Shown here in pieces: positions 45,431 to 62,556 of a stretch of 64,000 bases of DNA. Position 1 is the stretch's first letter, and every line of letters starts with the position of its first letter. The position numbers and the translations under genes are program-made. The notes beneath the pieces were generated by a model. The model was given only the letters and a program-made list of their open reading frames with translations. It was not told the DNA's origin and made no database searches. Source of the DNA: an uncultured Anaerobiospirillum sp. (lineage in GTDB: Bacteria; Pseudomonadota; Gammaproteobacteria; Enterobacterales; Succinivibrionaceae); contig CALXOW010000006.1 of the NCBI GenBank assembly GCA_944390115.1, forward strand, positions 1 through 64,000, in the 5' to 3' direction.

Positions 45431-45464
45431 AACAATAGGTTCCTTTTAAGCTTGAGCGTTCAGA

Positions 45465-46841: not shown

Positions 46842-46946
46842 CGACAATCCTTAATTGGTGTCTAAACAATCCTGATGGCACCCCGTAGGCGCCCGGGCGA
46901 TCGGCCCGCACAATCACATGCTCGCCTACAGCGAACAGGGCTAATC

Positions 46947-47065: not shown

Positions 47066-48469
47066 ATGTTTGGGAATTGGCATGTCGACACTTTGCGTTT
47101 GTATGAGGTTATCGCCTCGCCCATTGTGCTCTTTGGGCCTGAACTGCAAGTAAGTTTTGCCCACGGCAATCGCGCTGATGAGCGTCCTTATGAAGAGCTG
47201 GCACGCACTTGGTCGCGCAATATTGGCGAGCCCTTGCTGCTCTCGGCTGATAACCCGATCGGCGGCCTGCGCTTGCCTGAGCGCAGCATCGTGTTGATTG
47301 GCCCCATTACTCCGCTCAAGGTCACGCTGGCAGGCCAAAATCACTTCGTGGAAAACAAGACGGCGCAAGCAGCGGCCAATCTGTGGCTCAAGCTGGTCAG
47401 TGAGTTTTGCCGCCGCTCGGTGCACGCTCAAGAACCAGATGACTTAGAGCTAAATCAGCTCGGCTCAAGCGAACTGGGTTTAGGGGAGGCGCAGTTAGAG
47501 CAGGAGTTAAGTCAGCTCCTAGGACTTAAGATCCGTGCGGCCCACCAACCAGAGCCGGTTACCAGCACTACGCTGAGCTCTGTGCTCGAGAGTAATTTTG
47601 ATTTAAGCCGCATCGTGGCGGCGCAAGGTACCGCCTACAATCCTTTTGATGGCAATTTCAGCCCAGATGTGGTCTCACCTAAGGATGAAGATGCCTTTAT
47701 CGCCGCGCTCAACTTGGGCAAAATCAGCACGGTGCATCACCACAATCAGCTGCGCAATGAGGTATTGATGCAAGAGGCGGTGCGTGAGGGCGATTTAACT
47801 AAGCTGCGCTGGGCCAATAGCTTGGCCACCAAGGGTAAGGCCGGTATTTTGGGTTTAACCCCGCTTAGGCACTGGCAAAATCACGCCCATATCAGCAATG
47901 TGCTCGCAAGCCGTGCCGCCATTGACGCGGGCATTGCGCCCGAGGAGGCTTATGTCCTCTCAGATAAGCTTTTCTTGGTGGTCGAGCAAGTCACCGACCC
48001 GATGCTGGCTAAGTATATGCGCTTTGTCATTTGGCGTGCTTTCACCGAGCAGGTCAAGCGCCATCGCGATGAGCTCAAGGCGCGCCAACAGACACTGGAC
48101 ACGCTGACTCAAGTAAGTACCCCCGGCAGTCCAGAGCCCGTCTTGGTACTCAAGGCGCGCTATCTCATGGCTCAGCGCTTAATGGAGCCTTTAACTCTCA
48201 CCTCTATTGCCGAGGAGCTAGGGTGCACCCCAGAGCATTTAGCGCGCAGCTTCAAGCGCTATCACCATCAAACGGTGCATGAGTATTTAGTGGCAGAGCG
48301 CCTGAAGCTGGCCAAGGAGCTCTTGCTTGAGAGCAATCAAAAGGTAGGCGATATCGCGCAGCTGCTGCACTTTGCCTCAAGCTCACATTTTTGTGCTGCC
48401 TTCAAGGAGCGTGAGCACTTAAGTCCACTCAAGTGGCGCAAGCTGCACGCCAAGGTCGTTGAGGGCTAA
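47066..48469 (+). CDS. AraC-family transcriptional regulator
   Basis: 467 residues. The C-terminal double helix-turn-helix (about 365-460) is typical: MEPLTLTSIAEELGCTPEHLARSFKRYH, YLVAERLKLAKELLLESNQKVGDIA and HFASSSHFCAAFKEREHLSPL. The N-terminal 350 residues contain a region (MQEAVREGDLTKLRWANSL, HISNVLASRAAIDAGIAPEEAYVLSDKL) like the sensor part of large AraC regulators found beside carbohydrate genes and of the YSIRK-type group. It is probably an activator of the divergent GPH-GH51 operon, responding to an arabinose- or xylose-derived signal. The 15-bp direct repeat upstream is its likely site. Confidence 0.9.
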   Translation: MFGNWHVDTLRLYEVIASPIVLFGPELQVSFAHGNRADERPYEELARTWSRNIGEPLLLSADNPIGGLRLPERSIVLIGPITPLKVTLAGQNHFVENKTAQAAANLWLKLVSEFCRRSVHAQEPDDLELNQLGSSELGLGEAQLEQELSQLLGLKIRAAHQPEPVTSTTLSSVLESNFDLSRIVAAQGTAYNPFDGNFSPDVVSPKDEDAFIAALNLGKISTVHHHNQLRNEVLMQEAVREGDLTKLRWANSLATKGKAGILGLTPLRHWQNHAHISNVLASRAAIDAGIAPEEAYVLSDKLFLVVEQVTDPMLAKYMRFVIWRAFTEQVKRHRDELKARQQTLDTLTQVSTPGSPEPVLVLKARYLMAQRLMEPLTLTSIAEELGCTPEHLARSFKRYHHQTVHEYLVAERLKLAKELLLESNQKVGDIAQLLHFASSSHFCAAFKEREHLSPLKWRKLHAKVVEG

Positions 48470-48627: not shown

Positions 48628-50613
48628 TTAGTCCCAGATCTTGATGGTGTTGTGACCGGCCTTGAGACCTTCAATTGGGCCGACATGGCAGGCGGCCTCA
48701 TCACGGTTTTGGTCTAAGAGGTCGTAGTTGATGGTCAGTGGGCTGCCATCCTTGTTCTCATAGGCGCACTCGCTTAAGCGGGTCTCACCTAAGAAGGCGG
48801 TGGTAATGGCTGGGAAGGTCAGATTCAGCATCTCGGCTGGTACATCGATGTCCATCATCAGGCCTTGCTCAGTGCGATAGACCTTGAGGGCAGGATCTGC
48901 CGCTGTGCTGACCTTATCTTGCTCGGCACGGAAGGCTGGAGCGTCCTTGAGGTAGGCGTTGTGATTGATGTAGACCGGATCCTTAATCAGCTTGAAGCAA
49001 TCGACGTCCTCACGGGCATACTTCTTTTGCAGCTCTTGGAACTCCTCGTAGCCATTCGAGAATGGGTCGTAGAAGGAAGTACCAAAGTGGCATTCCTCGG
49101 TACGTGGTACGCCCTTGCCCACATAGACATTGCCATAGACGCGATCGTCGCCGCTGTACACTACCGCAAAGCCGGTGACGGTGGTGGAGTGTGGAGCGTG
49201 GTATGGGGTAGCGCGATCTAAGACATCGATGTGGCGCGTGGTACCGTTGAAGAAATTGTTGATTAAGGCGGTGCCTTGAGCCACGTTGTCGAAGTTGTAC
49301 TCCGAGGCAAAGATATTGTTGGCTACCACGCATGGACCGTGGGTAACTTCGATCATCAGGTCGCGGAAGTTGTCATAGAAGACATTGGAGATAACCTGAG
49401 TGCCTTGAGCTTCCCAATCAAGCCAAATACCCAAGGTGCAGTCATGGAACTCATTGTGGTCGATCTTGACGTCAATGGCCGCGTGCAGCTTGATACCGGC
49501 GATTTCGTGGCCAAAGAACTCATGCTTCATCGCAATGTTGTAGAAGCGATTGTGGTGAATATGCGAGCCAATGCAGCCTAAGTGACCGACCACGCCATTT
49601 TGCCCGCAATCGTGCATGACGTTGTTATAAACCTGGTGGCTGCCGATGATATCAAAGCTCCAGCCGCGATTGACCGCCTTAAAGACGTCCTCTAATTGGT
49701 ACTGATAGCCTGGCTTGCGGTTAAAGCGCCAGCTCTCGTTATCGCCGGTGCTAATTTCCTTACCCAACGACAGAGCCGAGCACTTAGCGTCGTGCAGGTC
49801 GCAATTGCGCACAATCCAGCCCTTGGACCAGTAGGTGTCGATCATGCCGCGCTGCACGCCAGTAGGTGGAGCCCATTGGGTGGCAGCCTGGCAGACCTCA
49901 AAGCCCTCTAAGGTGAGGTAATTGGTGTTAACTTGGCTTGGGGCAAAGCAGCACTCACGGACATTGATTTCGATGGTGTGACTTACAAGTTGCTCTGGGG
50001 TGAAGTCACCAAAGTGGGCGTAAATGGTGGTGTTGTCGGCATCGACCTCGGCGTGCCAGACTAAGAGGGTGCGGGCGGTGTCGTAGATCGCCTCTTCCTT
50101 ACCGACCCATGGCGAGCAAGGACCTGCGGTCTTAATCTTAGGATTCTTAACGCCCTCGAGATCTACGCTCTCGTACATCGAGAGGCCATCGAAATAGACG
50201 TCGCCGGTGTGCAGGCAGTTAGGCCAAGGATCCATCAGCCAATCGCCACACAGCAGGGTGGCAAAAGGATTAGCACCGGTTGGGTTATGCTCCTTGAAGA
50301 AGGAGTTAGGGATAACGGCACGATAGACTGGAACGCTGGCGCCAGGCAGATTAGCTGGCTCCCAAGCAGTGATCACTTCCGAGCCCTTGATGACGACTTT
50401 CTCGCCTGGGGCAGCTTGGTAGGTAATGCGGTTGGTATTGGACTTACCACCCCAGCGTGGTTGCACCAGCTCGCGATAAACACCAGTGTGGACTACTACA
50501 GTGTCACCTGGCAGAGCAACTTGCGCGGCCTGATTGATGGTAGCAAATGGCTTCTCGGCGCTACCTTCTTGGCAGTCGCAACCACAGGCTTGGTTGACGT
50601 GGTAAACGGTCAT
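48628..50613 (-). CDS. xylC: GH120 beta-xylosidase (parallel beta-helix)
   Basis: 661 residues, AGGAG before the ATG, no signal peptide. Along its length it matches the GH120 family founded by XylC of Thermoanaerobacterium: N-terminal GSAEKPFATINQAAQVALPG, WSKGWIVRNCDLHDAKCSAL, GQNGVVGHLGCIGSHIHHN, AGIKLHAAIDVKIDHNEFHD. The family's catalytic pair is kept: D399 in WLDWEAQGT and E422 in IEVTHGP, 23 residues apart as in XylC (D382/E405). It removes xylose from xylo-oligosaccharides with retention. The gene lies 211 bases downstream of a GH31 gene. Its leader carries a CGTG...CACG-type operator, an 18-bp triplicate and a hairpin. Confidence 0.93.
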   Translation of the reverse strand: MTVYHVNQACGCDCQEGSAEKPFATINQAAQVALPGDTVVVHTGVYRELVQPRWGGKSNTNRITYQAAPGEKVVIKGSEVITAWEPANLPGASVPVYRAVIPNSFFKEHNPTGANPFATLLCGDWLMDPWPNCLHTGDVYFDGLSMYESVDLEGVKNPKIKTAGPCSPWVGKEEAIYDTARTLLVWHAEVDADNTTIYAHFGDFTPEQLVSHTIEINVRECCFAPSQVNTNYLTLEGFEVCQAATQWAPPTGVQRGMIDTYWSKGWIVRNCDLHDAKCSALSLGKEISTGDNESWRFNRKPGYQYQLEDVFKAVNRGWSFDIIGSHQVYNNVMHDCGQNGVVGHLGCIGSHIHHNRFYNIAMKHEFFGHEIAGIKLHAAIDVKIDHNEFHDCTLGIWLDWEAQGTQVISNVFYDNFRDLMIEVTHGPCVVANNIFASEYNFDNVAQGTALINNFFNGTTRHIDVLDRATPYHAPHSTTVTGFAVVYSGDDRVYGNVYVGKGVPRTEECHFGTSFYDPFSNGYEEFQELQKKYAREDVDCFKLIKDPVYINHNAYLKDAPAFRAEQDKVSTAADPALKVYRTEQGLMMDIDVPAEMLNLTFPAITTAFLGETRLSECAYENKDGSPLTINYDLLDQNRDEAACHVGPIEGLKAGHNTIKIWD

Positions 50614-50633: not shown

Positions 50634-50647
50634 TGTGCGCGAGCACA
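50634..50647. promoter_or_regulatory. Xyloside-regulon operator, site 1 (GH120 leader)
   Basis: TGTGCGCGAGCACA within GTGTGCGCGAGCACAC, 21 bases before the GH120 start; the pattern NGTGCRCGNRCACR of the other sites fits. Confidence 0.6.
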
Positions 50648-50711
50648 CGTAAGCTCCTACTAACACGTAAGCTCCTACTAACACGTAAGCTCCTACCATT
50701 TGGTAGGAGCT
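50646..50711 (-). repeat. 18-bp triplicate and hairpin in GH120 leader
   Basis: CACGTAAGCTCCTACTAA occurs at 50646-50663 and 50664-50681, with a partial third copy from 50682 that runs into the hairpin AGCTCCTACCA-TT-TGGTAGGAGCT. In the minus-strand transcript the first AGCTCCTAC arm can pair with any of three GTAGGAGCT copies. Confidence 0.8.
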
Positions 50712-50798
50712 GGGCCAACCTAGTAGTCCAGCTTTAGGGGCTATCTCCTCAGCGCTCTGAGCGCTACAGCCTCCGCCGGGCTACTAGGGGTGCCGAAT

Positions 50799-50834
50799 TT
50801 AGATTAAGGCTTTGAATTAAGGCCTTAGATTAAG
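50799..50834. repeat. Stop-codon echo after the GH31 gene
   Basis: TTAGATTAAG at 50825-50834 holds the stop and last codons of the minus-strand GH31 gene. The same 10 bases recur downstream at 50799-50808, with a further degenerate GAATTAAGG between. Confidence 0.7.
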
Positions 50835-52912
50835 TCAAAGCCGTCGCGGGCAAAGACTGGGGTGACCTCCAGTGGCGTGGCCACGGTGACGACCTGACCG
50901 CCCTCATAGACGGTGCCAGTGTGGATATCACGCCACTTAGCGCCGCTTGGCAGATAGACCGAGCGCTCGCTCTGGCCTGCGGTATAGACTGGGGCGACTA
51001 ACAGGCTTGGACCAAACATGTGCTGGTCTTCGTAGTCGTAGGTAGCCTGATCTTGTGGGAAGTCATAGAACATTGGGCGAATGACTGGGGTGCCCTTGGT
51101 GTGAGCCTCTTCCATAATCTGCGTGATATATGGCTTGAGCTGGACACGATAGTTCATGTACTTCTTGCAGATCTCATAGACGCGCTCACCGTAGGAGTAA
51201 ACCTCGTTAGGACCACCCGAGCAGCACATAGCGCCACCGGTAGTGCCAACCGGCTCTTGGCGTGGCTCGCGGTCACCGTGGACGCGCATGACTGGGCAGA
51301 AGGTGCCCCACTCAAACCAGCGGGCAAAGACCTCACGATAGGCCTCGTCGTTGGCGTCACCACCGTGGAAGCCGCCGATATCGGTGGTCCACCAGGTGAT
51401 GCCCGCCAGACCCATATTGAGGCCAGCGGCGATTTGGTTGCGCATGCTCTCAAAGGTGGTGCCGATATCGCCTGACCAGACTAAAGCACCATACTTTTGC
51501 GAACCAGCCCAAGCGCAGCGTAACAGGCTGATAGTCTTCTCAATGCCTTGCTCACGCAGGCCGTCAAAGAAGGTCTTGGCGTACATGACTGGGAACATGT
51601 TGCCAATCTGCATATTGGAACCGGCGTAGTAGCGGAAGTGGTCGAAGTCGTAGATCTTGTACTCAGGCTCAGCCTCGTCGAGCCAGAAGAGCTTGACGCC
51701 ACGGTCAAAGTAATTCTTCTTGGCGACATTCCAGACGAACTTGCGGGCCCCTGGGTTGGTGGCGTCAAAGTGAATGGTTGGAGCCATGAAGTCCATACCG
51801 TACTGGACGCCACGCTCAGTGCGAATGAGGTAGCCGCGCTCGTTTAACTCCTTGAAGTTAACCGAGGCCGTCTCAACGGTTGGCCAAATCGAGACCATGA
51901 GCTCAACGCCCATCGACTTGAGCTCAGCGATCATGCCCTCAGGATCAGGCCAGTAGGTTGGGTCAAAGTCCCAATCGCCTTGGTGCTCCCAATGGAAGAA
52001 GTCGACCACGATGACGTCAAGCGGCAGACCACGGCGCTTGTACTCGCGGGCCACCTCCAAGAGCTGCTCTTGGGTGGCATAGCGCAGCTTGCACTGCCAA
52101 AAGCCCATCGCGTAGTCTGGCATCATTGGCACCTTGCCTGCGACGTCAGCATATTGCTCTTCGATCTCAGCTGGGGTGTCACCGGCGCAAATCCAGTAAT
52201 CGAGCTTCTTAGTGGAGTAGGCGACCCACTCGGTCAAGTTCTTAGCAAAGGTAACCTTACCTACGGCTGGATTGTTCCATAAGAAGCCGTAGCCTTGGGT
52301 CGAAATCATAAATGGCACCGAAGCCTGGGAGTTGCGTTGTGCCAGCTCCAAGGTGCAGCCCTTTAAGTTCAAGTAAGGCTGCTGGTATTGGCCCATACCG
52401 TAGATACGCTCGTTGGCGTTCGGCTCAAAGCGGGCGGTTAACTGGTAGTCGCCACCGCGATGTGGCATAAACTCGCGGCCAACAATCTCCAGAGCGCTTA
52501 AGTCCTTGGAATGGCCGTCTAAGCGGTTACGGGCAAACTCTTCTAATAAGACCTTGCCGGTAGCGTTCTCATAGAAGACGACCTTACCGCCAGCGGTAAT
52601 CTCAGCGCGGATCTTGCCATTGGTGATCGAGCCGCAGGCGACCTGAATGGTGCGGGCGCCTGGGAAATTGGAGACTACGGATTGTTCCTCAAGCCAGGTC
52701 TTAATGGTGCAGTTACCAGCCGCTTCAGCCCCGGCTGCACAGTACTGAGCAGGGACCTCTTCGCTCAATGCGTAATCAGCATCATTCATGTCGTAGCCCA
52801 TCATAACGGAGCGTACGCGCAGGGCGTTCTTGCCCCAAGGCTCGATGCAAGTGGTTTGGCCTTCAAAATAACGGTAGAGCTTACCGTCCTTAGCTTCGAC
52901 AATTCCTGCCAT
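50825..52912 (-). CDS. GH31 alpha-glycosidase, probable alpha-xylosidase
   Basis: 695 residues, GAGGA upstream, no signal peptide. GH31 barrel landmarks: YGMGQYQQPYLNLKG, PDYAMGFWQCKLRYATQEQLL, DVIVVDFFHWEHQGDWDFDPTYWPDP (in pieces VVDFFHWEH and DFDPTYWPDP), the nucleophile aspartate in LFWLDEAEPEY and the acid/base aspartate in VWSGDIGTT, then WWTTDIGGFHGG. The CKL/WEHQGDW and LDEAEPE signatures are those of alpha-xylosidases of the Cellvibrio/Sulfolobus type rather than of YicI. Its substrate is probably xyloglucan-type isoprimeverose or similar. It lies upstream of GH120, and an operator sits 80 bases before its start. Confidence 0.88.
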   Translation of the reverse strand: MAGIVEAKDGKLYRYFEGQTTCIEPWGKNALRVRSVMMGYDMNDADYALSEEVPAQYCAAGAEAAGNCTIKTWLEEQSVVSNFPGARTIQVACGSITNGKIRAEITAGGKVVFYENATGKVLLEEFARNRLDGHSKDLSALEIVGREFMPHRGGDYQLTARFEPNANERIYGMGQYQQPYLNLKGCTLELAQRNSQASVPFMISTQGYGFLWNNPAVGKVTFAKNLTEWVAYSTKKLDYWICAGDTPAEIEEQYADVAGKVPMMPDYAMGFWQCKLRYATQEQLLEVAREYKRRGLPLDVIVVDFFHWEHQGDWDFDPTYWPDPEGMIAELKSMGVELMVSIWPTVETASVNFKELNERGYLIRTERGVQYGMDFMAPTIHFDATNPGARKFVWNVAKKNYFDRGVKLFWLDEAEPEYKIYDFDHFRYYAGSNMQIGNMFPVMYAKTFFDGLREQGIEKTISLLRCAWAGSQKYGALVWSGDIGTTFESMRNQIAAGLNMGLAGITWWTTDIGGFHGGDANDEAYREVFARWFEWGTFCPVMRVHGDREPRQEPVGTTGGAMCCSGGPNEVYSYGERVYEICKKYMNYRVQLKPYITQIMEEAHTKGTPVIRPMFYDFPQDQATYDYEDQHMFGPSLLVAPVYTAGQSERSVYLPSGAKWRDIHTGTVYEGGQVVTVATPLEVTPVFARDGFDLI

Positions 52913-52991
52913 TGAACAATCCTCACAAAACAGCAGATAGCGTTCCGCGCTATCGATTAGCTGCTATCTTAGCCGTGATGTTCTGTAAAAA

Positions 52992-53005
52992 CGTGCACGT
53001 ACACG
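52992..53005. promoter_or_regulatory. Xyloside-regulon operator, site 2 (GH31)
   Basis: CGTGCACGTACACG, 80 bases upstream of the minus-strand GH31 start. Confidence 0.7.
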
Positions 53006-53324
53006 ACATTAATTCAAAATCGTGAGGTATATCAAAACTTACTGCAAAGCTGCTCCTAGCGTGCGCGGTCACGATACTCAGGAAGAGCGCTGACGGTGCG
53101 AGCAAAGAACGGCTACGGTGCGCAAAAGGTAGTTGGAACAAGGTAGTGGTGCGGGGCAGGTGCTACCGCAGCGCGGGGCAGGTGCTACCACAAAGGTGGG
53201 TATTAGATGGGCTTGGTTGTTGCCCTTAGGCTCACAGTTGGCCTTAGGCCGCGCCCGTCCGGTCCACCGCAAGAGGAAAGGTAGACCTCTCAGTTGAGAG
53301 CGACGGCGTTGTCAGCAGACTAAA

Positions 53325-53353
53325 AGGCCGTCCTACCTAGGGCAGGACGGCCT
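53325..53353 (-). terminator. Terminator of mdaB-like gene
   Basis: AGGCCGTCCT ... AGGACGGCCT, a perfect 10-bp stem; on the minus strand TTTTAG follows. Confidence 0.75.
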
Positions 53354-53410
53354 GTGAGTACGGACGCTCGATAGAGCGCTGGCAGCTGGAAACTTCCTGA
53401 GCTGAAAGCT

Positions 53411-53461
53411 GCCTTAATTAGAAGTTAGTCTTACTAGAAGTTGGCCTTAATTAGAAGTTAG
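53411..53461. repeat. Stop-codon echo after mdaB-like gene
   Basis: GCCTTAATTAGAAGTTAG occurs at 53444-53461 (holding the minus-strand stop and last codons) and again at 53411-53428 (18/18, period 33), with a degenerate copy between them. Confidence 0.85.
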
Positions 53462-54029
53462 CCTTGAGGTGGGCGATGTAGCGGGCCTTATCACCCTCGT
53501 GGTCAGGGTTCTTGACGACATCATTGAACATGAAGCTTGGCACTTGATCCTTGATGCCGATGAACTCAAAGGTCTTGCGCAGTGGCAGGAAAACGCCATC
53601 GATGCCCTTGCCCTCAAAGAATTGGTCTGGGTCGCTAAAGGCCTCAGCTGGAGCATTCCAGGTCGAGACCAGCATGTAATGCTTGCCTTGGAGCTCACCG
53701 CCGGTGCCGTACTTAGCGCTTGGGTCAGCGCGGTGACGGCCGTCGCCCTTGGCGATGCGTGGGTCGCAGAAGACGTAGTCGAGGTACTTCTTGAGCTGCC
53801 ATGGGATCGACATCCAAAAGCCTGGGGTCTGGATGATGATGTAGTCAGCTGCTATCACCTTGCCAGCTTCGGTGGCAACGTCGTAGTCGTCCTCAACGCG
53901 CGTGATTTCCACGGAGTAACCCATTTGAGTTAAGGTCTCTTGCGCGACTTGAGCGTAGTGGTGATTGAGCTCACCTTGAGCAAAGCCCTGATGCACACCG
54001 GCATCGATGATTAAAACCTTCTTAGCCAT
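53451..54029 (-). CDS. mdaB: NAD(P)H-dependent flavin quinone reductase, MdaB-like
   Basis: 192 residues. Flavodoxin-like fold with FAD site: KKVLIIDAGVHQGFAQGELN, HHYAQVAQETL, ADYIIIQTPGFWMSIPWQLKKYLDYVF (pieces), YMLVSTWNAPAEAF. MdaB enzymes reduce quinones by two electrons and protect against oxidative or quinone stress. Here the gene sits between xyloside hydrolase genes, and a perfect-style operator (CGTGCACGGACACG) lies 34 bases before its start, so it may be in the same regulon. It could detoxify phenolic or quinone compounds released with plant cell wall sugars; that link is inference. Confidence 0.88.
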   Translation of the reverse strand: MAKKVLIIDAGVHQGFAQGELNHHYAQVAQETLTQMGYSVEITRVEDDYDVATEAGKVIAADYIIIQTPGFWMSIPWQLKKYLDYVFCDPRIAKGDGRHRADPSAKYGTGGELQGKHYMLVSTWNAPAEAFSDPDQFFEGKGIDGVFLPLRKTFEFIGIKDQVPSFMFNDVVKNPDHEGDKARYIAHLKANF

Positions 54030-54062
54030 CTGCTAAAACATTCCTGCTAATTAAGAAAGAAA

Positions 54063-54076
54063 CGTGCACGGACACG
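54063..54076. promoter_or_regulatory. Xyloside-regulon operator, site 3 (mdaB)
   Basis: CGTGCACGGACACG, 34 bases upstream of the mdaB-like start. Confidence 0.65.
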
Positions 54077-54485
54077 CCAAAGCGTGGCGCGGGAAAAACA
54101 GCCAGCAGGCTGTTGGTTCTATGTTACTCCCTTGGATCAGGCTGAGTTCAGCGCGCCCGAAGTTAGGGCGGCTGATGCTGACCTGAGCTGGGGGCAGCGG
54201 GTATTGCTTTAAGCGCCACTACAGGCTTTGCCGTGAGCGTCGCTGTCGGCGTTGCTGCGAGCGTCTCTGAGGGCGCCGCTGCGAAGCTGCAGGGCTTAGC
54301 CCTGGGGAGTTGCATCACAAACGCCGCGTCCGGATTGAGGCGCGGCGTTATGGTAATGCGTGAACTGTTTCACCATAGACGTTTGTGGGGTTAAGTTCAA
54401 GCTCTGGTCGGCCCTGCGCGCGAAATGGTCAATAAATTGAGAAAAATGGGCACAAGCTGGAGATATAAACTCAGAGCGCTCAAAA

Positions 54486-54499
54486 CGGGCACGTGCACA
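54486..54499. promoter_or_regulatory. Xyloside-regulon operator-like, site 4
   Basis: CGGGCACGTGCACA fits the reverse orientation of the consensus with one mismatch; intergenic. Confidence 0.4.
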
Positions 54500-54653
54500 G
54501 AAATGGGCATTTGTGATGATAAGGTTAGCTTGGTGGTATCACGGCGTGCGGCGCAATAAAGTAGGATAGGGGCGCGTCACAGCGGGCTTGGCGCGATATA
54601 TGGGGCGTTTGCGCCTTGGTTTTGCTCCGGCGCGCGCGCGTCTAGTTGCTGGA

Positions 54654-54667
54654 TGTGCACGCGCACA
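54654..54667. promoter_or_regulatory. Xyloside-regulon operator, site 5
   Basis: TGTGCACGCGCACA, near-palindrome with central CG, in the mdaB/GPH intergenic region. Confidence 0.55.
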
Positions 54668-54840
54668 GTTTAATTTTTTCTTGACCGTGATCACTATTGT
54701 GGACAAAGAATGGTGCAAGTTGAGCGCAAAAACGATATTTTTATCGGGTCCTAACAAGGATAGGTGGGATAGCAGGAAATCAACTTTGCACTTCCTGCGC
54801 GATGCCCTTGGTTCTCTGGGGATTAATGTCCGGCAATTTC

Positions 54841-54854
54841 CGTGCACGTACACG
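54841..54854. promoter_or_regulatory. Xyloside-regulon operator, site 6 (GPH-GH43)
   Basis: CGTGCACGTACACG, identical to site 2, 163 bases before the GPH symporter start. Confidence 0.65.
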
Positions 54855-55016
54855 GGTTGCCGCTTGGTCCGGGGTGGAGCTTAGGGTGCTGTTCCATGGA
54901 GTTTGACTCGGTCGCCGCTGGGAGGCCTAGCATGATGCTAGGCTAGGGATAGGCTGCATTAAGGCTCTTTTGCTTTGACTTGGTCAGACTCCAAGGTACT
55001 AGGAGGAGATGTACCA

Positions 55017-56453
55017 ATGGCCTCAAATAAGGTCTCAATGTTCGAAAAGATAAGTTTCGGAAGTGGTGACTTAGGTTGCACCATTATCTGGAACGTAGTC
55101 GGTATGTTCTTAACTATTTACTATACCGACGATGTTAAGATTAGCGCCGCTGCGGTTGCTGCCATTATGCTGTCGGTCCGTATTTTCGACGGCTTCTCAG
55201 ATCTGGTCATGGGTTACATCCTTGACCGCACTAACTCCAAGTTAGGTAAGGCTCGTCCTTGGATCTTATGGTCGGCACCATTCATGGCCATCTTCTTAGT
55301 CTTGTGCTTCGCAGTACCAGACTTCTTAGGTGAGACCATGAAGATCGTCTACGCCTTCTTGACCTACTTCTTCTTAACCGTAGTCATCTACACCGCTTGC
55401 AACCTGTCGTACTGCGCCCTGACTTCGTTCATGACCGACGACCTGCAAGAGCGTGCCGGTATGAACTCCGTCCGCTTCGTAATGACCGGTTTAGGCTCGA
55501 TTGTCTTAGGCTATATCACCCCAGTTGCTGCTAAGGCCTTTGGTAGCTACGTCATCATCTGCATTATCTATGGTGCCGCTGCTTTTGCCTTATTACTCCT
55601 GTGCTTCTTTGTCTGCAAAGAGCGTATCAAGCCACAGCCACGTCGTCCTGAGGACAAGGTTTCGGCCAAGGAGTCCTTACGCGTTCTGTCCAAGAACACC
55701 TTCTTCTATTACTTAGTATCCTTCTTCGTTATCGACTTCGCTAACGCAGGTATCACCGGTGCTTCTGGTATGTACCTGTCGCGTTACATCATCAAGGATG
55801 ACGCCTTCTTCGGTACCTTGAATATGGCTGCGGTCTTACCTCAGGTTATCGCTTGCTTCATGTTCCCATGGATCATGAACTGGCTCCGTGGTAAGTGGAA
55901 CACCATTATCTTAGGTTATGTCCTCTATGTAGTCGGCTATGGCATGTGCTACTTATTAGTTGGCACCAACATTGAGTCGGGCTCCTTAGCTTTCTATGCC
56001 TTATTAATTGGTAACGGCATCAAGGGTATTGGTTGGGGCATCCACTTAGTTGCTATGTTCGCTATGATCGCTGACGTAGCTGAGTACGGTGAGTGGAAGG
56101 CAGGCCGCCGTTTAGAGGGTGCTACCTACTCGGTTTCGTCCTTCGGCTTCAAGATTGGCTTAGGTATGGGTGGTGCTGTCGTTGGTGCCGTCTTATCGAT
56201 GGTCAACTACGACGCCTCCTTAGAGGTACAACCTCAAGAGACCTTAGACGCCATCTTAACCATCAACTTCACCATTCCTTTAATCTTATCGGTTATCGGT
56301 TTAGTCCTCTCGATTACCAACAACTTAGATAAGATTTACCCAGTCATGATGAAGGAATTAATGGTTCGTCGTGCTGAGGAAGCTCGCAAGTTCTCGCACG
56401 AAGAGGTTGATCGCCCTCATTTAGACAAGTTAGCTGAGAACAACGCTCAGTAA
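55017..56453 (+). CDS. xynB: GPH-family xyloside:cation symporter
   Basis: 478 residues from ATG 55017 (AGGAGGAG upstream). GPH-type major-facilitator protein: KISFGSGDLGCTIIWNVVGM, VMGYILDRTNSKLGKARPW, and the family's late loop MIADVAEYGEWKAGRRLEGATYS. 12 membrane helices are expected. It resembles xyloside transporters found next to GH43 xylosidases (the symbol xynB is used for one such family and is tentative). Codon use is strongly optimised (cct, cgt, tta, gct), unlike nearby genes, which implies high expression. GH43 xylosidase lies downstream, separated by two hairpins. Confidence 0.88.
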   Translation: MASNKVSMFEKISFGSGDLGCTIIWNVVGMFLTIYYTDDVKISAAAVAAIMLSVRIFDGFSDLVMGYILDRTNSKLGKARPWILWSAPFMAIFLVLCFAVPDFLGETMKIVYAFLTYFFLTVVIYTACNLSYCALTSFMTDDLQERAGMNSVRFVMTGLGSIVLGYITPVAAKAFGSYVIICIIYGAAAFALLLLCFFVCKERIKPQPRRPEDKVSAKESLRVLSKNTFFYYLVSFFVIDFANAGITGASGMYLSRYIIKDDAFFGTLNMAAVLPQVIACFMFPWIMNWLRGKWNTIILGYVLYVVGYGMCYLLVGTNIESGSLAFYALLIGNGIKGIGWGIHLVAMFAMIADVAEYGEWKAGRRLEGATYSVSSFGFKIGLGMGGAVVGAVLSMVNYDASLEVQPQETLDAILTINFTIPLILSVIGLVLSITNNLDKIYPVMMKELMVRRAEEARKFSHEEVDRPHLDKLAENNAQ

Positions 56454-56511
56454 GCTGAGAGTTAGTAAGGGGCTGGGAGCAAAGCTCAGCCTACCAGCTA
56501 AAAAAAGATCA

Positions 56512-56557
56512 AGGTCAGGCCTTGCGCCTGACCTAGGGGGGCGGCCTAGGCCGCCCC
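56512..56557 (+). terminator. Two perfect hairpins between GPH and GH43 genes
   Basis: AGGTCAGGC-CTTGC-GCCTGACCT (9-bp stem) is followed directly by a 20-bp perfect palindrome GGGCGGCCTAGGCCGCCC (core). No U-tract follows, so they may be an attenuator or mRNA-processing site rather than a full terminator. Confidence 0.5.
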
Positions 56558-56716
56558 TGTAGGATATGGGCTCTGTCCCAAGTCCTTAGTCCAGTCTTTG
56601 GACTGAGGCTGTGCCCGCCATTTCTGGTGAGGCTGTGCCCGCCTTTTTGCTGAGGCTTTGGGAGAGAGCGCAGGCCTTGTCGCTTGTGCGCCATGCCGTT
56701 AGGAGGATTTCGTTTA

Positions 56717-58345
56717 ATGAAGATTACCAATCCAATTTTGCCGGGTTATAACCCAGATCCATCCATCCTGCGGGTGGGTGATGATTACTACATTGCCACC
56801 TCGACCTTTGAGTGGTTCCCTGGTGTGCGCATCCACCACTCTCGTGATTTAAAGCACTGGGAATTAATCGCCCTGCCTCTTAACACTAAGAAGCTGCTCG
56901 ATATGACCGGCAATGGCGATGGCGGCGGTGTCTGGGCTCCATGCCTGAGCTACCACGATGGTAAGTTCTACCTCATCTACACTGATATGAAGACCGAAGA
57001 CAGCTCGGCCTTCCGTGACGGTCACAACTACCTGACCACCGCTACCGATATCCGTGGCCCATGGTCTGACCCGATCTTCTTAAACTCCTCGGGCTTTGAT
57101 CCTTCCTTATTCCACGACGATGATGGCCGCAAGTATTTGGTCAACCCAATTTGGGATCACCGCATCGGCCACCACTGGTCCTACGGCATCGTAATGCAAG
57201 AGTTCTCGGAGGCCGAGGGTAAGTTAGTGGGACCTGCCAAGGTTATCTGGAAGGGCACTCCAGTCGGCATGACTGAAGGCCCTCATATCTACAAGAAGGA
57301 TGGCTACTATTACCTGATGTGCGCTGAGGGTGGCACCGATTATCACCACTCCGAGACCATTGCCCGCAGCCGCGATATCTGGGGTCCATATGAGGCTGAC
57401 CCACAGACGCCATTCCTCTCGGCTTACTACGATCCAACCAACCCACTGCAAAAGTGCGGTCACGCTTCCTTAGTTGAGACCCAAAACGGTGAGTGGTACT
57501 TAGCTCACTTAACCGGCCGTCCATTAGAGTTAGGCCGTCGTCCTTTATTCGACCTCAACCTCTATGGCTGCTGCCCATTAGGCCGTGAGACCGCACTGCA
57601 AAAGATCGAGTGGGTTGACGGCTGGCCACGCGTGGTGGGCGGGCGTCAAGGTGCCTTAGAGATCGAAGGTCCAAACTTACCTGAGGTCCCAGTTAAGCCA
57701 ACTTGGCCTGAGTCGGGCAAGGATGACTTTGACAGCAGCGAGCTCAATATCAATTACCAGTGGCTGCGCATCCCATTAACCGAGCAGATGGCTACCTTAA
57801 AGGAGCGCCCAGGCTACTTACGCCTCTACGGCTACGAGTCCTTGGCTTCCTACCACACCCAGTCCTTAGTAGCACGTCGTTGGGAGTCCTTTAACTTCGA
57901 TGCTGAGACGGCCATAGAGTTTGAGCCAGACACCTTCCAGCAATTAGCCGGTCTCACCTGCTTCTACAATCGCGACAACTTCACCTTTATCTTTGTATCG
58001 TGGGATGAGGAGAAGGGCCGCTGCATCGACCTCATTGGCCGCTCGATTAAGAATTACTACGCTCCAATTAAGAACAAGGTCATCCCAATTCCTGAGGACG
58101 TCAAGAAGGTTTACTTCAAGGTTGAGGTACGTCACGACACTTACCACTACCTCTACAGCTTTGACGGCCAGAATTACACCGCCATCGACTATGACTTCCG
58201 TTCCGCAGATCTCTCGGATGATCACGTCGAGCGCAATGGCGGCAGAGCGTTCTTCACTGGCGCCTTTGTTGGTATGACCAGCATCGATATGCAAGGTACC
58301 CACAAGCCAGCCGACTTCGACTTCTTTAGCTATAAGAACGTCTAA
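56717..58345 (+). CDS. xynB: GH43 beta-xylosidase
   Basis: 542 residues from ATG 56717 (AGGAGG upstream). Beta-propeller glycosidase of the GH43 subfamily-11 type: MKITNPILPGYNPDPSILRV with catalytic base D14, SSGFDPSLFHDDDG with the pKa-modulating aspartate at D128, and MTEGPHIYKK with the acid E187. GHASLVETQNGEWYLAHL is also typical. The C-terminal beta-sandwich (about 325-540) is complete. It acts on xylo-oligosaccharides with inversion. No signal peptide, so cytoplasmic. It lies downstream of the GPH symporter and is likely expressed from its operator. Confidence 0.94.
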   Translation: MKITNPILPGYNPDPSILRVGDDYYIATSTFEWFPGVRIHHSRDLKHWELIALPLNTKKLLDMTGNGDGGGVWAPCLSYHDGKFYLIYTDMKTEDSSAFRDGHNYLTTATDIRGPWSDPIFLNSSGFDPSLFHDDDGRKYLVNPIWDHRIGHHWSYGIVMQEFSEAEGKLVGPAKVIWKGTPVGMTEGPHIYKKDGYYYLMCAEGGTDYHHSETIARSRDIWGPYEADPQTPFLSAYYDPTNPLQKCGHASLVETQNGEWYLAHLTGRPLELGRRPLFDLNLYGCCPLGRETALQKIEWVDGWPRVVGGRQGALEIEGPNLPEVPVKPTWPESGKDDFDSSELNINYQWLRIPLTEQMATLKERPGYLRLYGYESLASYHTQSLVARRWESFNFDAETAIEFEPDTFQQLAGLTCFYNRDNFTFIFVSWDEEKGRCIDLIGRSIKNYYAPIKNKVIPIPEDVKKVYFKVEVRHDTYHYLYSFDGQNYTAIDYDFRSADLSDDHVERNGGRAFFTGAFVGMTSIDMQGTHKPADFDFFSYKNV

Positions 58346-59205
58346 GTCTCAGATTACGAGCTGCAACTCAGCACGTAGCAAGCTTCAGGTTCCGACCTGA
58401 TGAGCAAAAGAGCTAGGGCGCGGCTTGATAGTTGCGCCCTTTTGCCATCTAGCGTCGGCAGTTCTGGGGTAGCCTCCTTACGGTGGAGACACCAAGCTGC
58501 CTTGAGCTGTGGCAGCGCCAGGCTTGCCACTTATAGTGGCGCCTTTAGGTGGGCTCTCAGGCCGTGTCTGGAACTTACGGGCTTTACACCGTGCTTGCAG
58601 AGTGCTTTGCACTGCGTTTGCGGGGGCTTTGCATCGCATTTGCTGGGTGCGTGTGGCAGCTGAGGGGACTGAGTTTGCCCTTGGCTGTGCTCACTTTGTA
58701 GCGCTGAGTCCGCGCAAGTTTTGGTCAAAAGTGTGCCCTAAATGGTGCTTTTGCAAATCAGTCCACGTTTGGGTGTAATGGTTTGGCACAAGGGCCATGC
58801 TTTGCGCTATCATTATGCCTGTAGAGCCAAGGTTAGGATGTGCCAAATCTTGTCCTTGGATTTGCCCCGTGCTGGGAGTTACCGCAAGACCTTGGGTCTT
58901 GGAGGGAAATCCTAGCTTGCGCCAGTCAAGCGTAGAGCCGCAGGACGTAGACCGTTAGGTATAGCGCCGTTGGGCGGATGCCGTGGTGTAGCGTCTTAGG
59001 CTGTGCGTGAGACCTAAAGAGGCAAGGGTGGCGTGCCAACTTGCAGGTAGTAAGGCAAGTGTGCTTTGCTCCTTGTTAAGGGACCTTGACCGTGAAGCCA
59101 AACACGAATCAAGGATGGTGCGGCCGTGCCAGAGTGATGAAGAGCGGTGGAGACTCTTGGGCGCTCAGAAAATACTTTCGTTTTTCGTTAGAAAAAGGTC
59201 CATTC
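58346..59205. other. 860-base region with terminator and long leader
   Basis: After the GH43 terminator (58416-58443) no gene is supported. Frames at 58400-58778 on both strands are low-complexity or shadow-like. A TTGGCA/TATCAT pair at 58783 and 58808 (19-base spacing) could drive a leader of about 390 bases to the kinase gene. Confidence 0.4.
58416..58443 (+). terminator. Intrinsic terminator of GH43 gene
   Basis: GGGCGC ... GCGCCC stem followed by TTTT; flanking GCAAAAG/CTTTTGC can extend it. Confidence 0.65.
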
Positions 59206-59808
59206 ATGTCTAATGTAGTTATCACAATCTCCCGTCAATATGGTGCAGCCGGTCGCGAGATCGCTACCAAGGTCGCTGAGAAGCTGGGCGTTCACCTCTA
59301 TGACCGTCAATTAGTTCACATTGCTGCTGCTCAGCTGCAAATCGACGAGTTAAGCGAGGACGAACTCTTAAAGTTAGAGCGTGAGGTTCCACCTCTTGGC
59401 TTGTCCTTCACCCCATTCTTCTCGTTCGGTATGCGCGGTGAGAAGCCTTTAAACCAGCAGATCTTCGAGGCTGAGGCTGGCGTTATCGCGCGCTTAGCTC
59501 GCAACGAGTCCTGCGTTATTTTAGGTCGTTGCGCTGACTTCGTCTTACACAACGAGCGCAATGTTCTCACCGTCTTCATCCACGCTTCCGATAAGTTCCG
59601 TGCTGATCGTGGTGTTCACACTTACGTCGGCAAGACCTTAGAGGACTTAAAGCGTGAGGATGAGAAGCGTGCTTTATACTACAAGCACTTCACGGCTCAG
59701 GAGTTCGGTGACCCAGAGAACTACGACTTAGTTGTCCGTGCCGACAAGGGCACCACCGACGAGATTGCTGATGCTATCGTCGCTTATGCTAAGGCTTACA
59801 TCAAGTAA
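59206..59808 (+). CDS. Cytidylate-kinase-like family protein
   Basis: 200 residues from ATG 59206; AAAGG lies upstream, while the longer 59086 start adds an unsupported leader. The start VVITISRQYGAAGREIATKV contains a P-loop-like GAAGREIA of the cytidylate kinase 2 family, with LYDRQLV, ILGRCADFVL and an acidic C-terminal half. It differs from Cmk and is commonly found as a stand-alone gene in gut bacteria, and its substrate is not established. Codons are strongly optimised. Preceded by a long untranslated region and followed by two terminators. Confidence 0.8.
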   Translation: MSNVVITISRQYGAAGREIATKVAEKLGVHLYDRQLVHIAAAQLQIDELSEDELLKLEREVPPLGLSFTPFFSFGMRGEKPLNQQIFEAEAGVIARLARNESCVILGRCADFVLHNERNVLTVFIHASDKFRADRGVHTYVGKTLEDLKREDEKRALYYKHFTAQEFGDPENYDLVVRADKGTTDEIADAIVAYAKAYIK

Positions 59809-59823
59809 GAGACCTTAGTGGGC

Positions 59824-59880
59824 AAAGTGGCCTCGCCACTTTTTGACCGGAGGGCCAAGTCCGCAGGACTTGGCCCTTTG
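59824..59880 (+). terminator. Tandem terminators after cytidylate-kinase-like gene
   Basis: AAGTGGC-CTC-GCCACTT-TTTT at 59825-59844, then AGGGCCAAGTCC-GCA-GGACTTGGCCCT at 59851-59877 with TTGTCGTTTT. Confidence 0.8.
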
Positions 59881-60222
59881 TCGTTTTGGGCGCACCAAAA
59901 ATCAATGCAGTGAGGGCCATCTCAGGACTACCAGCGGGAGGAGTGCTTAAAGGAGCTCACGACCTGTTTTTTTATGGCAAAAAAGGGCCAAAAGATGCGC
60001 CGTGCCGGTGCACACTTAATCCTTTAAGTTTTTTGATGTCAAAAATGAGATCCCTCGCAAAGTTTCGGGATTTTTTCAGGCTTTTTGCTGAACAGGGCGG
60101 CCATTTGACGTACAATAACGCCCATAACGTGCACGCGCACGATCTCACCGGTTGTTGAGGAAAATTTCTTTTTCGCAACAAGTGGTGGCAGGATTTGTTT
60201 TGTCTTTCATTGGGATTGTCGC
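59881..60222. other. Regulatory region of GH31 yicI-type gene
   Basis: 342 bases with no gene. TACAAT at 60111-60116 may be the -10 box; the operator at 60128-60141 begins 12 bases after it, a position expected for a repressor roadblock. Confidence 0.5.
60128..60141. promoter_or_regulatory. Xyloside-regulon operator, site 7 (yicI-type GH31)
   Basis: CGTGCACGCGCACG, 82 bases upstream of the start and just downstream of a possible -10 box. Confidence 0.7.
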
Positions 60223-62556
60223 ATGAAGATTAGTGATGGTAATTGGCTTGTTCAGCCTAACTTCACCTTACAGCACCCAGCTCAGGTCTATCAGTACCAC
60301 TTCGATGAGGCCACGGGCAAGCTCACTGTCTATGCTCCAGCCAAAGAGGTGCTCTCTGATCGTGCTAACCAAATCAACTGCACCCTCTTTACCATTGAGG
60401 TCTCTGCTCCTCACGAGGGCGTGATTGGCGTTAAGTTCAATCACCACATGGGTTTAGTTGATCGCGGTCCACACCACGAGCTCAACATCTGCTCCGAGGC
60501 CATGAAGTCGGCTGTATTCACCGACACTGAGGACTATATCGAGCTCAAGTCCGGTTCCCTGGCTTGCCGTTTTAGCAAGAAGGATTGGAAGATCGACTTC
60601 CTGCGCAACGGTCAGCGTATCACCGGCTCTGAGTACAAGAGCACCGGCTACGTCACCGATATCTACAATGGTCAGCACTATTGCTATGAGCGCCTGGATA
60701 TCACGGTCAACGAGTGGGTCTATGGCTTAGGCGAGCGCTTCACCTCCTTCGCCAAGAATGGCCAAGTCGTCGATACTTGGAACTTAGACGGCGGTACCTC
60801 TACGGAGCAAGCCTACAAGAACGTTCCATTCTATCTGACCAATAAGGGCTACGGAGTCTTCGTCAACCACCCAGAGAAGGTCTCCTTCGAGGTTGGTTCC
60901 GAGCGCGTTTCCAAGGTTCAATTCTCGGTTAAGGGCGAGAATATCGAGTACTTTGTCATCGACGGTCCTACCCCTAAGGACGTATTGCAAAAGTACACCG
61001 ACTTAACCGGCAAGCCAGCTCTGCCACCAGCTTGGTCCTTTGGTCTGTGGCTGACCACTTCCTTCACCACCAATTACGACGAGGCTACCGTTAACTCCTT
61101 TATCGACGGTATGGCTCAGCGTGATATCCCACTGCACGTATTCCACTTCGATTGCTTCTGGATGGAAGGCTTTGAGTGGTGCAACTTCACTTGGGATAAG
61201 GCCTGCTTCCCAGATCCTGAGGCAATGTTAAAGCGCCTGCACGAGGACAAGAAGCTCAAGGTCTGCGTCTGGATCAACCCATACATCGGCCAGAAGTCGC
61301 CTCTGTTCAAGGAAGCTATGGATAAGGGCTACCTCATCAAGCGTCCTAACGGCGATGTTTGGCAGTGGGATCTGTGGCAGTCGGGTCAAGGCATTGTCGA
61401 CTTCACCAATCCTGAGGCCGTAAAGTGGTACCAAGGCCACTTAAGCCGCTTAGTTGACATGGGCGTTGATTGCTTCAAGACCGACTTCGGTGAGCGTATC
61501 CCAACTGACTGTGTTTACTTCGATGGTTCCAACACCGAGGGCATGCACAACTACTACACCTACCTCTACAACAAGGCTGTCTTTGAGGTCTTAGAGGGCA
61601 AGGTTGGTAAGGGCAACGCAGTACTCTTTGCTCGTTCGGCTATTGCCGGTGGCCAGAAGTTCCCAGCTCACTGGGGTGGTGACTGCTACGGCACCTACGA
61701 GTCGATGGCTGAGACCTTACGTGGCGGCTTAAGCCTTGCTATGTCGGGCTTCTCTTACTGGAGCCACGATATCGGCGGCTTCGAGAACACCGCTCCTGCT
61801 GACCTGTACAAGCGCTGGTGCGCCTTTGGCCTCATGAGCTCGCACAGCCGTCTGCACGGCTCCAAGTCCTATCGTGTACCGTGGACTTATGACGACGAGG
61901 CTTGCGACGTTCTGCGTTACTTCGTCAAGCTCAAGTGCTCGCTCATGCCATACCTATACAATATGGCCCGCTATGCCCATGAGACCGGTATCCCAATGCT
62001 GCGTCCTATGGCCTTAGAGTTCAATGAGGATCGCGTTTGTGATCACATTGAGAGCCAGTACATGATGGGCGATAGCATCTTAATCGCTCCAATCTTCAGT
62101 GCTGACGGCGGCGTTGACGTCTACCTGCCACGCGGCAAGTGGACCTCCTTAATCACCAATGAGGTTAAGGAAGGCAACAGCTACTATCACGAGACCCATG
62201 GCTTTATGTCGATGCCAATCTACGTTCGTGAGAACACCTTGTTAGCTCAAGGCGCCGTCGACAACAAGCCTGAGTACGAGTACAACGTCGGCACCAAGTT
62301 CTTACTGTGCGAGCTGCAAGATGGCGCTGAGTGCGAGGCTAAGGTCACCGACCTCAAGGGCAACGTGGTTTATACCTTAAAGGCCTCTCGTTGCGGCAAC
62401 ACCATCGCCTTTGTCGGCGAGGGCGATGCCCGTGACATCTCGGTCACTATCACCAACGTCGCTGCTGCTACCTCCAGCGATGCCGCTATCACCAAGGGTG
62501 AGAAGGGCGTAGTGGTTGTACCAAACGACGTTCACCACTTCACCGTTGAGCTCTAA
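60223..62556 (+). CDS. yicI: GH31 alpha-xylosidase, YicI-like
   Basis: 777 residues. Close co-linearity with E. coli YicI from the start (MKISDGNWLVQPNFTLQHP), through TWNLDGGTSTEQAYKN, LPPAWSFGLWLTTSFTTNYD and the nucleophile aspartate in CFKTDFGERIPTD (D421) to the acid/base in HWGGDCYGTYES (D487), and SHDIGGFENTAPADLYKRWCAF. Retaining alpha-xylosidase that cuts isoprimeverose-type xyloglucan fragments. No signal peptide. Codon use is strongly optimised. It is a second GH31 next to the one at 50825-52912, but in a different subfamily, with its own operator and a very strong bidirectional terminator. Confidence 0.95.
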   Translation: MKISDGNWLVQPNFTLQHPAQVYQYHFDEATGKLTVYAPAKEVLSDRANQINCTLFTIEVSAPHEGVIGVKFNHHMGLVDRGPHHELNICSEAMKSAVFTDTEDYIELKSGSLACRFSKKDWKIDFLRNGQRITGSEYKSTGYVTDIYNGQHYCYERLDITVNEWVYGLGERFTSFAKNGQVVDTWNLDGGTSTEQAYKNVPFYLTNKGYGVFVNHPEKVSFEVGSERVSKVQFSVKGENIEYFVIDGPTPKDVLQKYTDLTGKPALPPAWSFGLWLTTSFTTNYDEATVNSFIDGMAQRDIPLHVFHFDCFWMEGFEWCNFTWDKACFPDPEAMLKRLHEDKKLKVCVWINPYIGQKSPLFKEAMDKGYLIKRPNGDVWQWDLWQSGQGIVDFTNPEAVKWYQGHLSRLVDMGVDCFKTDFGERIPTDCVYFDGSNTEGMHNYYTYLYNKAVFEVLEGKVGKGNAVLFARSAIAGGQKFPAHWGGDCYGTYESMAETLRGGLSLAMSGFSYWSHDIGGFENTAPADLYKRWCAFGLMSSHSRLHGSKSYRVPWTYDDEACDVLRYFVKLKCSLMPYLYNMARYAHETGIPMLRPMALEFNEDRVCDHIESQYMMGDSILIAPIFSADGGVDVYLPRGKWTSLITNEVKEGNSYYHETHGFMSMPIYVRENTLLAQGAVDNKPEYEYNVGTKFLLCELQDGAECEAKVTDLKGNVVYTLKASRCGNTIAFVGEGDARDISVTITNVAAATSSDAAITKGEKGVVVVPNDVHHFTVEL

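Follow-up and report, generated by a model that had tools for sequence, protein, structure and literature searches.

A predicted LacI-family xylose/xyloside regulon in Anaerobiospirillum and a second, terminator-linked class of its motif

The palindromic motif and its candidate regulator

A 64,000-nucleotide stretch of DNA from an uncultured Anaerobiospirillum sp. (hereafter the window; part of contig C6 of a 3.64-Mb draft genome, referred to as G000 or the own genome) carries a group of 14-bp palindromes between 50.6 and 60.2 kb. These palindromes very likely serve as operators of a LacI-family repressor, probably the putatively xylose-responsive protein LacI18, acting by the mechanism proposed below. 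What the sequence shows directly is the set of sites, how well they are conserved, that they accompany the LacI18 operon in six genera, and that a -10-like box precedes many of them; we infer from this that the protein binds the sites, that it represses instead of activating, and which inducer it responds to. The operon-linked motif in other genera, a matrix independent of the window, and upstream conservation in close orthologues together point to a LacI-family xylose/xyloside regulon that appears to be enlarged in this genus and for which the term "xyloside" alone is incomplete.

An earlier note on this DNA had listed seven sites under the consensus CGTGYACGTRCACG. All seven palindromes are present where they had been placed, and all are intergenic. 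The consensus itself was too narrow, since it is exact only at 52992 and 54841, with one mismatch at 54063 and 60128, two at 54486, three at 54654, and four at 50634, and a scan limited to three mismatches misses 50634. At that limit, 13 window matches were obtained versus a shuffle mean of 7.0, a weak excess in that 3 of 100 shuffles reached 13. The corrected motif, YGTGCNCGNGCACR, retains the LacI-type form claimed earlier (an even 14-bp palindrome with a central CG) and occurs exactly at 20 places in the own genome, versus 0 for the reversed-pattern control. With at most one mismatch, there were 110 places versus 53 for the control; nine of the 110 fall between 50.6 and 60.2 kb, namely, the seven listed sites and two more at 53060 and 60001.

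Counts were extended to a genus set of 11 genomes (G000 to G010), 14 other genomes of the family, and 16 from other families of the order. In G000 to G010, the exact motif was found 20, 14, 12, 22, 8, 5, 5, 10, 10, 19, and 15 times, respectively (140 in total), and the reversed pattern 0, 1, 2, 2, 1, 0, 0, 0, 3, 0, and 1 times. The 14 other family genomes hold 0 to 5 exact copies each and the 16 genomes of other families 0 to 3. Only six of the 140 sites lie in predicted coding DNA, versus 71% coding in the loci examined (564,174 of 796,763 classified bases; gene calls in the site classification are simple predictions), and the two half-sites vary almost independently across the 140 sites.

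Two matrices were used for scoring. One was built from 15 own-genome sites, window ones included, and served for locus scores, orthologue scans, and the terminator-offset scan. The other (foreign matrix) was built from seven operators in five genomes of other genera and is the sole matrix independent of the window. The six highest foreign-matrix scores in the window fell on 54654, 50634, 54486, 60128, 54841, and 52992, all on the earlier list; six positions scored at least 14, all between 50.6 and 60.2 kb, versus 0.6 expected per 64 kb under a first-order Markov model. The predicted operators and weaker possible sites (no strand assigned) were as follows.

50634..50647: predicted operator TGTGCGCGAGCACA, 21 bp before GH120; exact to YGTGCNCGNGCACR; foreign-matrix rank 2
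52992..53005: predicted operator CGTGCACGTACACG, before the GH31 gene 50825-52912; one mismatch to YGTGCNCGNGCACR; foreign-matrix score 15.4
53060..53073: weaker possible site CGTGCGCGGTCACG, absent from the earlier list; one mismatch; own-genome matrix score 14.4; outside the foreign-matrix top 16
54063..54076: predicted operator CGTGCACGGACACG, before the MdaB-like gene; one mismatch; foreign-matrix rank 11 (10.9)
54486..54499: predicted operator CGGGCACGTGCACA, first of three before GPH-GH43; one mismatch; foreign-matrix rank 3; same site in G003
54654..54667: predicted operator TGTGCACGCGCACA, second of three before GPH-GH43; exact; foreign-matrix rank 1; kept upstream of GPH orthologues
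54841..54854: predicted operator CGTGCACGTACACG, third of three before GPH-GH43; one mismatch; foreign-matrix score 15.4; also in G003, G008, and G002
60001..60014: weaker possible site CGTGCCGGTGCACA before yicI, absent from the earlier list; one mismatch, in the central CG; foreign-matrix score 13.1; kept in G003
60128..60141: predicted operator CGTGCACGCGCACG before yicI; exact; foreign-matrix rank 4; site upstream of 9/9 yicI orthologues in the genus

Conservation was assessed by orthologue scans that started from proteins, not from the motif, and scored 600 bp upstream of each gene. A site was present before all nine yicI orthologues, before nine of the ten close GPH orthologues (at least 69% identity) versus none of 13 distant GPH paralogues, and before 14 of 15 close orthologues of the binding protein versus none of three distant ones; one further binding-protein fragment could not be scored, as it starts at a contig edge. 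The exceptional close binding-protein gene, in G007, has an exact site 623 bp upstream, just beyond the scanned region. The reversed-matrix control gave 1/9, 3/23, and 1/19 upstream regions for yicI, GPH, and the binding protein, respectively, and the first 600 bases of the genes themselves held no site (0/51). An exact site between GH120 and GH31 was also found in G003 and G009, and talC and a GH5-like gene were recurrent upstream positions elsewhere in the genus (6/11 genomes each).

The earlier note had seen in the palindromes the mark of a xyloside regulon. This holds for the xyloside genes of the window and not for a xyloside-only scope, as 17 of the 20 exact own-genome copies lie outside the window at varied genes; those inside are at 50634, 54654, and 60128. 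Outer copies in front of genes are found at the xylose ABC operon and talC, at a GH5/GH43 operon, and at genes for a sulfatase, an AMP-binding enzyme, and a chemotaxis receptor; some further copies are off promoters, behind flagellin, ftsZ, and MFS genes. According to family models, the targets GH120, GH43, yicI, GPH, and xylulokinase are predicted to give or use D-xylose.

The regulator had been expected outside the window, and indeed the own genome has 13 LacI-type genes, all on other contigs. The likely regulator among them is LacI18 (G000:C18:42711-43754), the last gene of an ABC transporter-xylulokinase-isomerase operon on contig C18 that encodes a ChvE-type binding protein, a GguA-type ATPase, a permease, a xylulokinase-DUF4867 fusion (xylulokinase model 561.6 bits, above the family cut-off), a protein with a fucose-isomerase C-terminal domain, and LacI18. 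The protein combines an N-terminal LacI helix-turn-helix (PF00356, 43.9 bits, cut-off 27) with a C-terminal sugar-binding domain, Peripla_BP_4 (PF13407, 136 bits, cut-off 35.1), and a solved-structure search with it matched sugar-binding proteins and CcpA. Its nine nearest named relatives share 82-98% identity. The recognition helix, VSRGTVDRVLH, is invariant from V14 to H24 in all 11 aligned orthologues, even where overall identity falls to 52%. The hinge Leu is present in 10 of these 11, and Gly replaces Ala three residues earlier in 10 of 11 (register by eye); in the excerpts of PMC2978694, a hinge Leu, with Ala three residues before, goes with a central CG of the operator.

Each of the 11 genus genomes has a LacI18 orthologue, as do G012, G021, G022, G024, G016, and G018. 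In five of these six other-genus genomes (all except G018), the intact operon is accompanied by an exact motif starting 45-59 bp before its first gene. The operon-associated copies are the only exact copies in G012, G021, and G022 (1/1 each) and in G024 (2/2), and one of five in G016. In related genera the repressor thus appears to be dedicated to a single operon, whereas here it would control many genes, which makes it a clear case of such enlargement, and a regulator, operator, and target set can be proposed for xyloside use in gut Succinivibrionaceae.

Canonical xylose isomerase XylA (TIGR02630) was found in none of the 11 genus genomes, and XylA was therefore dropped as a target; the isomerase-like gene of the xylose operon thus becomes a candidate for the xylose isomerase step. 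Its product (L039 12545-14203) is a fucose-isomerase-like protein far from characterised isomerases, a candidate unusual pentose isomerase for which the solved-structure search gave no match. In the same operon, the xylulokinase with its C-terminal DUF4867 domain (L039 9779-11962) forms a single reading frame.

Proposed mechanism and comparison with known systems

Without inducer, a LacI18 dimer would sit on YGTGCNCGNGCACR, at the best sites just downstream of the -10 box, and would block RNA polymerase. D-xylose or a xylose-yielding oligosaccharide would release LacI18, and release would turn on the import and cleavage of beta- and alpha-xylosides together with xylose catabolism. In 10 of 14 xylose-operon promoters, 2-8 nt separate the end of the best-scoring -10 box from the operator that follows, and in eight of nine yicI promoters the distance is 8-13 nt; these are observed counts from a search with general promoter frequencies and without a shuffled control. 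A protein bound just behind the -10 box would stop RNA polymerase as classical repressors do, and the three copies spread over ~370 bp before GPH-GH43 would make looping possible.

Several observations weigh against such a regulon. No -10 box was found beside the GPH and talC sites, and the GPH gene of G004 has no site. The LacI18 orthologue of G018 (51-52% identity) has the same helix, yet the exact motif is absent from that genome and from the vicinity of the gene. G006 has LacI18 without the operon nearby, and its five sites do not precede xyloside genes. G020 and G023 carry one and three exact sites (control 0 and 1) but have no LacI18 orthologue. Finally, many sites are not at promoters, for example, those behind flagellin, ftsZ, MFS, tRNA, and autotransporter genes.

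The motif resembles the E. coli LacI operator in its GTG-core half-site by a central CG and in its position near the transcription start. LacI-family half-sites usually have A where this motif has C. In the searched text of PMC4052901, most LacI-family sites are described as even palindromes with a central CG, and close to 90% of LacI-family regulators as local. The present system shares with those local sugar regulons the even palindrome with central CG, a regulator within the controlled operon, and targets in sugar transport and catabolism; unlike them, it has the operator also at many distant genes, some of the copies being off promoters. The words XylR, Aeromonas, and Tolumonas are absent from the searched text of that paper. 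The TVDR of the LacI18 helix differs from TVSR, which defines the dominant LacI-family subgroup in the excerpts of PMC2978694. The LacI-type XynR described in the excerpts of PMC12285236 likewise acts over xylan and xylose genes at several loci; it belongs to another phylum, and its operators, such as actagtaaacgcttacgata, differ from this motif. Literature listings for Anaerobiospirillum with xylose or LacI, Succinivibrionaceae xylan regulons, terminator roadblocks, and extragenic palindromes contained, at the level of the listings, nothing on this system. Sugar control of this LacI type is ordinary; the copies behind terminators were unexpected.

Sites away from promoters and rival binders

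The second, terminator-linked class is the more interesting part of the finding. By neighbourhood, the 140 sites comprise 59 between tandem genes, 31 between divergent genes, 12 between convergent genes, six in coding DNA, five undefined, and 27 at contig ends (17 on the upstream side and 10 on the 3' side of a gene). The convergent share, 12% of the 102 between-gene sites versus 9% of non-coding bases, indicates that there is no strong promoter bias. Flagellin was dropped as a controlled promoter because the site is mostly on its 3' side.

Nine of the 140 sites lie 44-69 nt from a tRNA gene end, just after the terminator. At these loci, the palindrome is kept and much of the spacer differs; the loci were chosen for holding the motif, so the apparent conservation leans to intact sites. 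More broadly, 14 of the 134 non-coding sites follow a terminator-like hairpin, with the palindrome 6-18 nt past the end of its T-run. Such a hairpin with its T-run end at 10-20 nt was found for 11/134 sites versus 30/4020 random positions in the same gaps, and, viewed from 411 distinct terminator-like elements, offsets 6-17 were richest in motif matches. This test was designed after the pattern had been noticed, and the 14 sites amount to about six independent loci, two of which lie inside the xylose operon, in G004 and G007. Four sites at two loci have a terminator-like hairpin on both sides; these two loci are convergent, and the two distances to the palindrome are almost the same. Further copies lie in repeat DNA behind autotransporter and AAA-ATPase-like genes, many near contig ends, where the core is kept and the inner bases vary. 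Terminal C and G are more frequent in the terminator-linked and repeat copies than in promoter copies, and the flanks of the former are richer in G+C. The copies are located as follows.

tRNA-Pro (G000, G003, G009, and G010): L040 5104, L110 3571, L119 3539, L140 424
tRNA-Arg-His-Leu group (G003, G009, G010, G002, and G008): L101 3459, L117 3521, L143 3543, L158 1500, L179 3559
Behind an MFS gene, with a terminator facing the palindrome from either side and each T-run 11-12 nt away: L048 5090, L106 3545
Repeat-DNA copies: L115, L120, L122, and L125-L130 in G009; L041 and L049 in G000; L097, L098, L108, and L113 in G003

It is possible, although on the whole unlikely, that the xylose operator is reused beside intrinsic terminators, where a LacI-bound palindrome 6-18 nt past the T-run would protect tRNA operons and convergent genes from read-through, perhaps depending on the sugar. 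The bound palindrome would meet the front of an RNA polymerase pausing at the T-run. If the same protein does bind these copies, a sugar repressor would have a role in ending transcription as well. LacI, PurR, GalR, and CcpA bound downstream can stop RNA polymerase according to the excerpts of PMC10310618, in which no natural intrinsic terminator followed within a few nt by an operator is described. As a separate observation, a motif copy at L099 (G003:C16) separates two adjacent ftsZ-related reading frames of 834 and 462 aa.

The many sites off promoters, which follow tRNA, flagellin, ftsZ, and autotransporter genes, would also suit a global or chromosome-structuring binder (CRP, an SlmA-like protein, or a nucleoid protein) for which sugar promoters are only part of the sites, and the xylose operon has a CRP gene as its divergent neighbour. 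We regard this as improbable, since G012, G021, G022, and G024 have exact copies only at the xylose operon and no more than three or four genus genomes have the CRP gene next to the site. The CRP site, TGTGA-N6-TCACA, has a spacing unlike this motif, and CRP was set aside on this spacing and on its gene distribution.

Another LacI-type protein might bind the sites instead of LacI18, chiefly that encoded at G000:C23:7278-8285, which is separated by two motif copies (6850 and 6985 of L042) from the GH5/GH43 operon with xylosidase-like genes. This is very improbable. All 11 genomes are enriched in the motif, yet the C23 protein has a close orthologue only in G003 (83%) and a 43% relative in G002; moreover, G001, G005, G008, and G009 lack the C23 protein and still have the site at their GH5-like gene. 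The C23 protein was rejected as a genus-wide binder on this narrow distribution, and local sharing of the operator is possible. A LacI paralogue on C92 (46% identity, helix SVGTVSRALNDK) was also set aside; an exact site was found at one of 11 relatives' loci, with weaker matches at three more. An RNA hairpin is not favoured, with outer bases complementary in 88/140 sites and inner bases in 64, versus 70 and 50 expected if the two halves were independent, an excess obtained with many related sequences among the sites. That the clustering is a chance or compositional artefact, as the small excess of the earlier consensus at three mismatches (13 versus 7.0) might suggest, has a negligible probability in view of the 20 versus 0 exact copies, the orthologue scans, the independent matrix, and the 6/140 sites in coding DNA.

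Gene content of the window

From 43.9 to 62.6 kb, the gene order is GH51, GPH, AraC-family, GH120, GH31, flavodoxin-fold reductase, GPH, GH43, cytidylate-kinase-like, and yicI-type alpha-xylosidase. The assignments are as follows.

43904..46847, minus strand: GH51 and GPH pair, motif-free (Pfam; promoter region without a match)
47066..48469, plus strand: AraC-family regulator, divergent from the GH51-GPH pair (Pfam HTH_18)
48628..50613, minus strand: GH120 protein, probable beta-xylosidase (Pfam GH120 insertion domain, 85.1 bits)
50825..52912, minus strand: GH31 protein (Pfam GH31 domains)
53451..54029, minus strand: flavodoxin-fold reductase, MdaB-like (Pfam Flavodoxin_2; the name mdaB is that of the earlier note)
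54975..56453, plus strand: GPH-family sugar symporter (Pfam MFS_2; NCBIfam gph 295.7 bits, above cut-off)
56684..58345, plus strand: GH43 protein with beta-xylosidase C-terminal domain (Pfam)
60223..62556, plus strand: yicI-type alpha-xylosidase (NCBIfam PRK10658 1235.5 bits, above cut-off)

The top NCBIfam match of the GH31 protein is alpha-xylosidase, at 257.5 bits and thus below the cut-off of 606. The GH51-GPH pair does lack the motif, as had been stated; the best score in the region up to the divergent AraC-family gene is only 4.8. The pair has no site and lies opposite an AraC-family gene, so control of arabinosides is probably separate. Directly behind the predicted GH120 operator, at 50646-50697 of the window, an 18-bp direct repeat (cacgtaagctcctactaa) in about three copies was noticed by eye.

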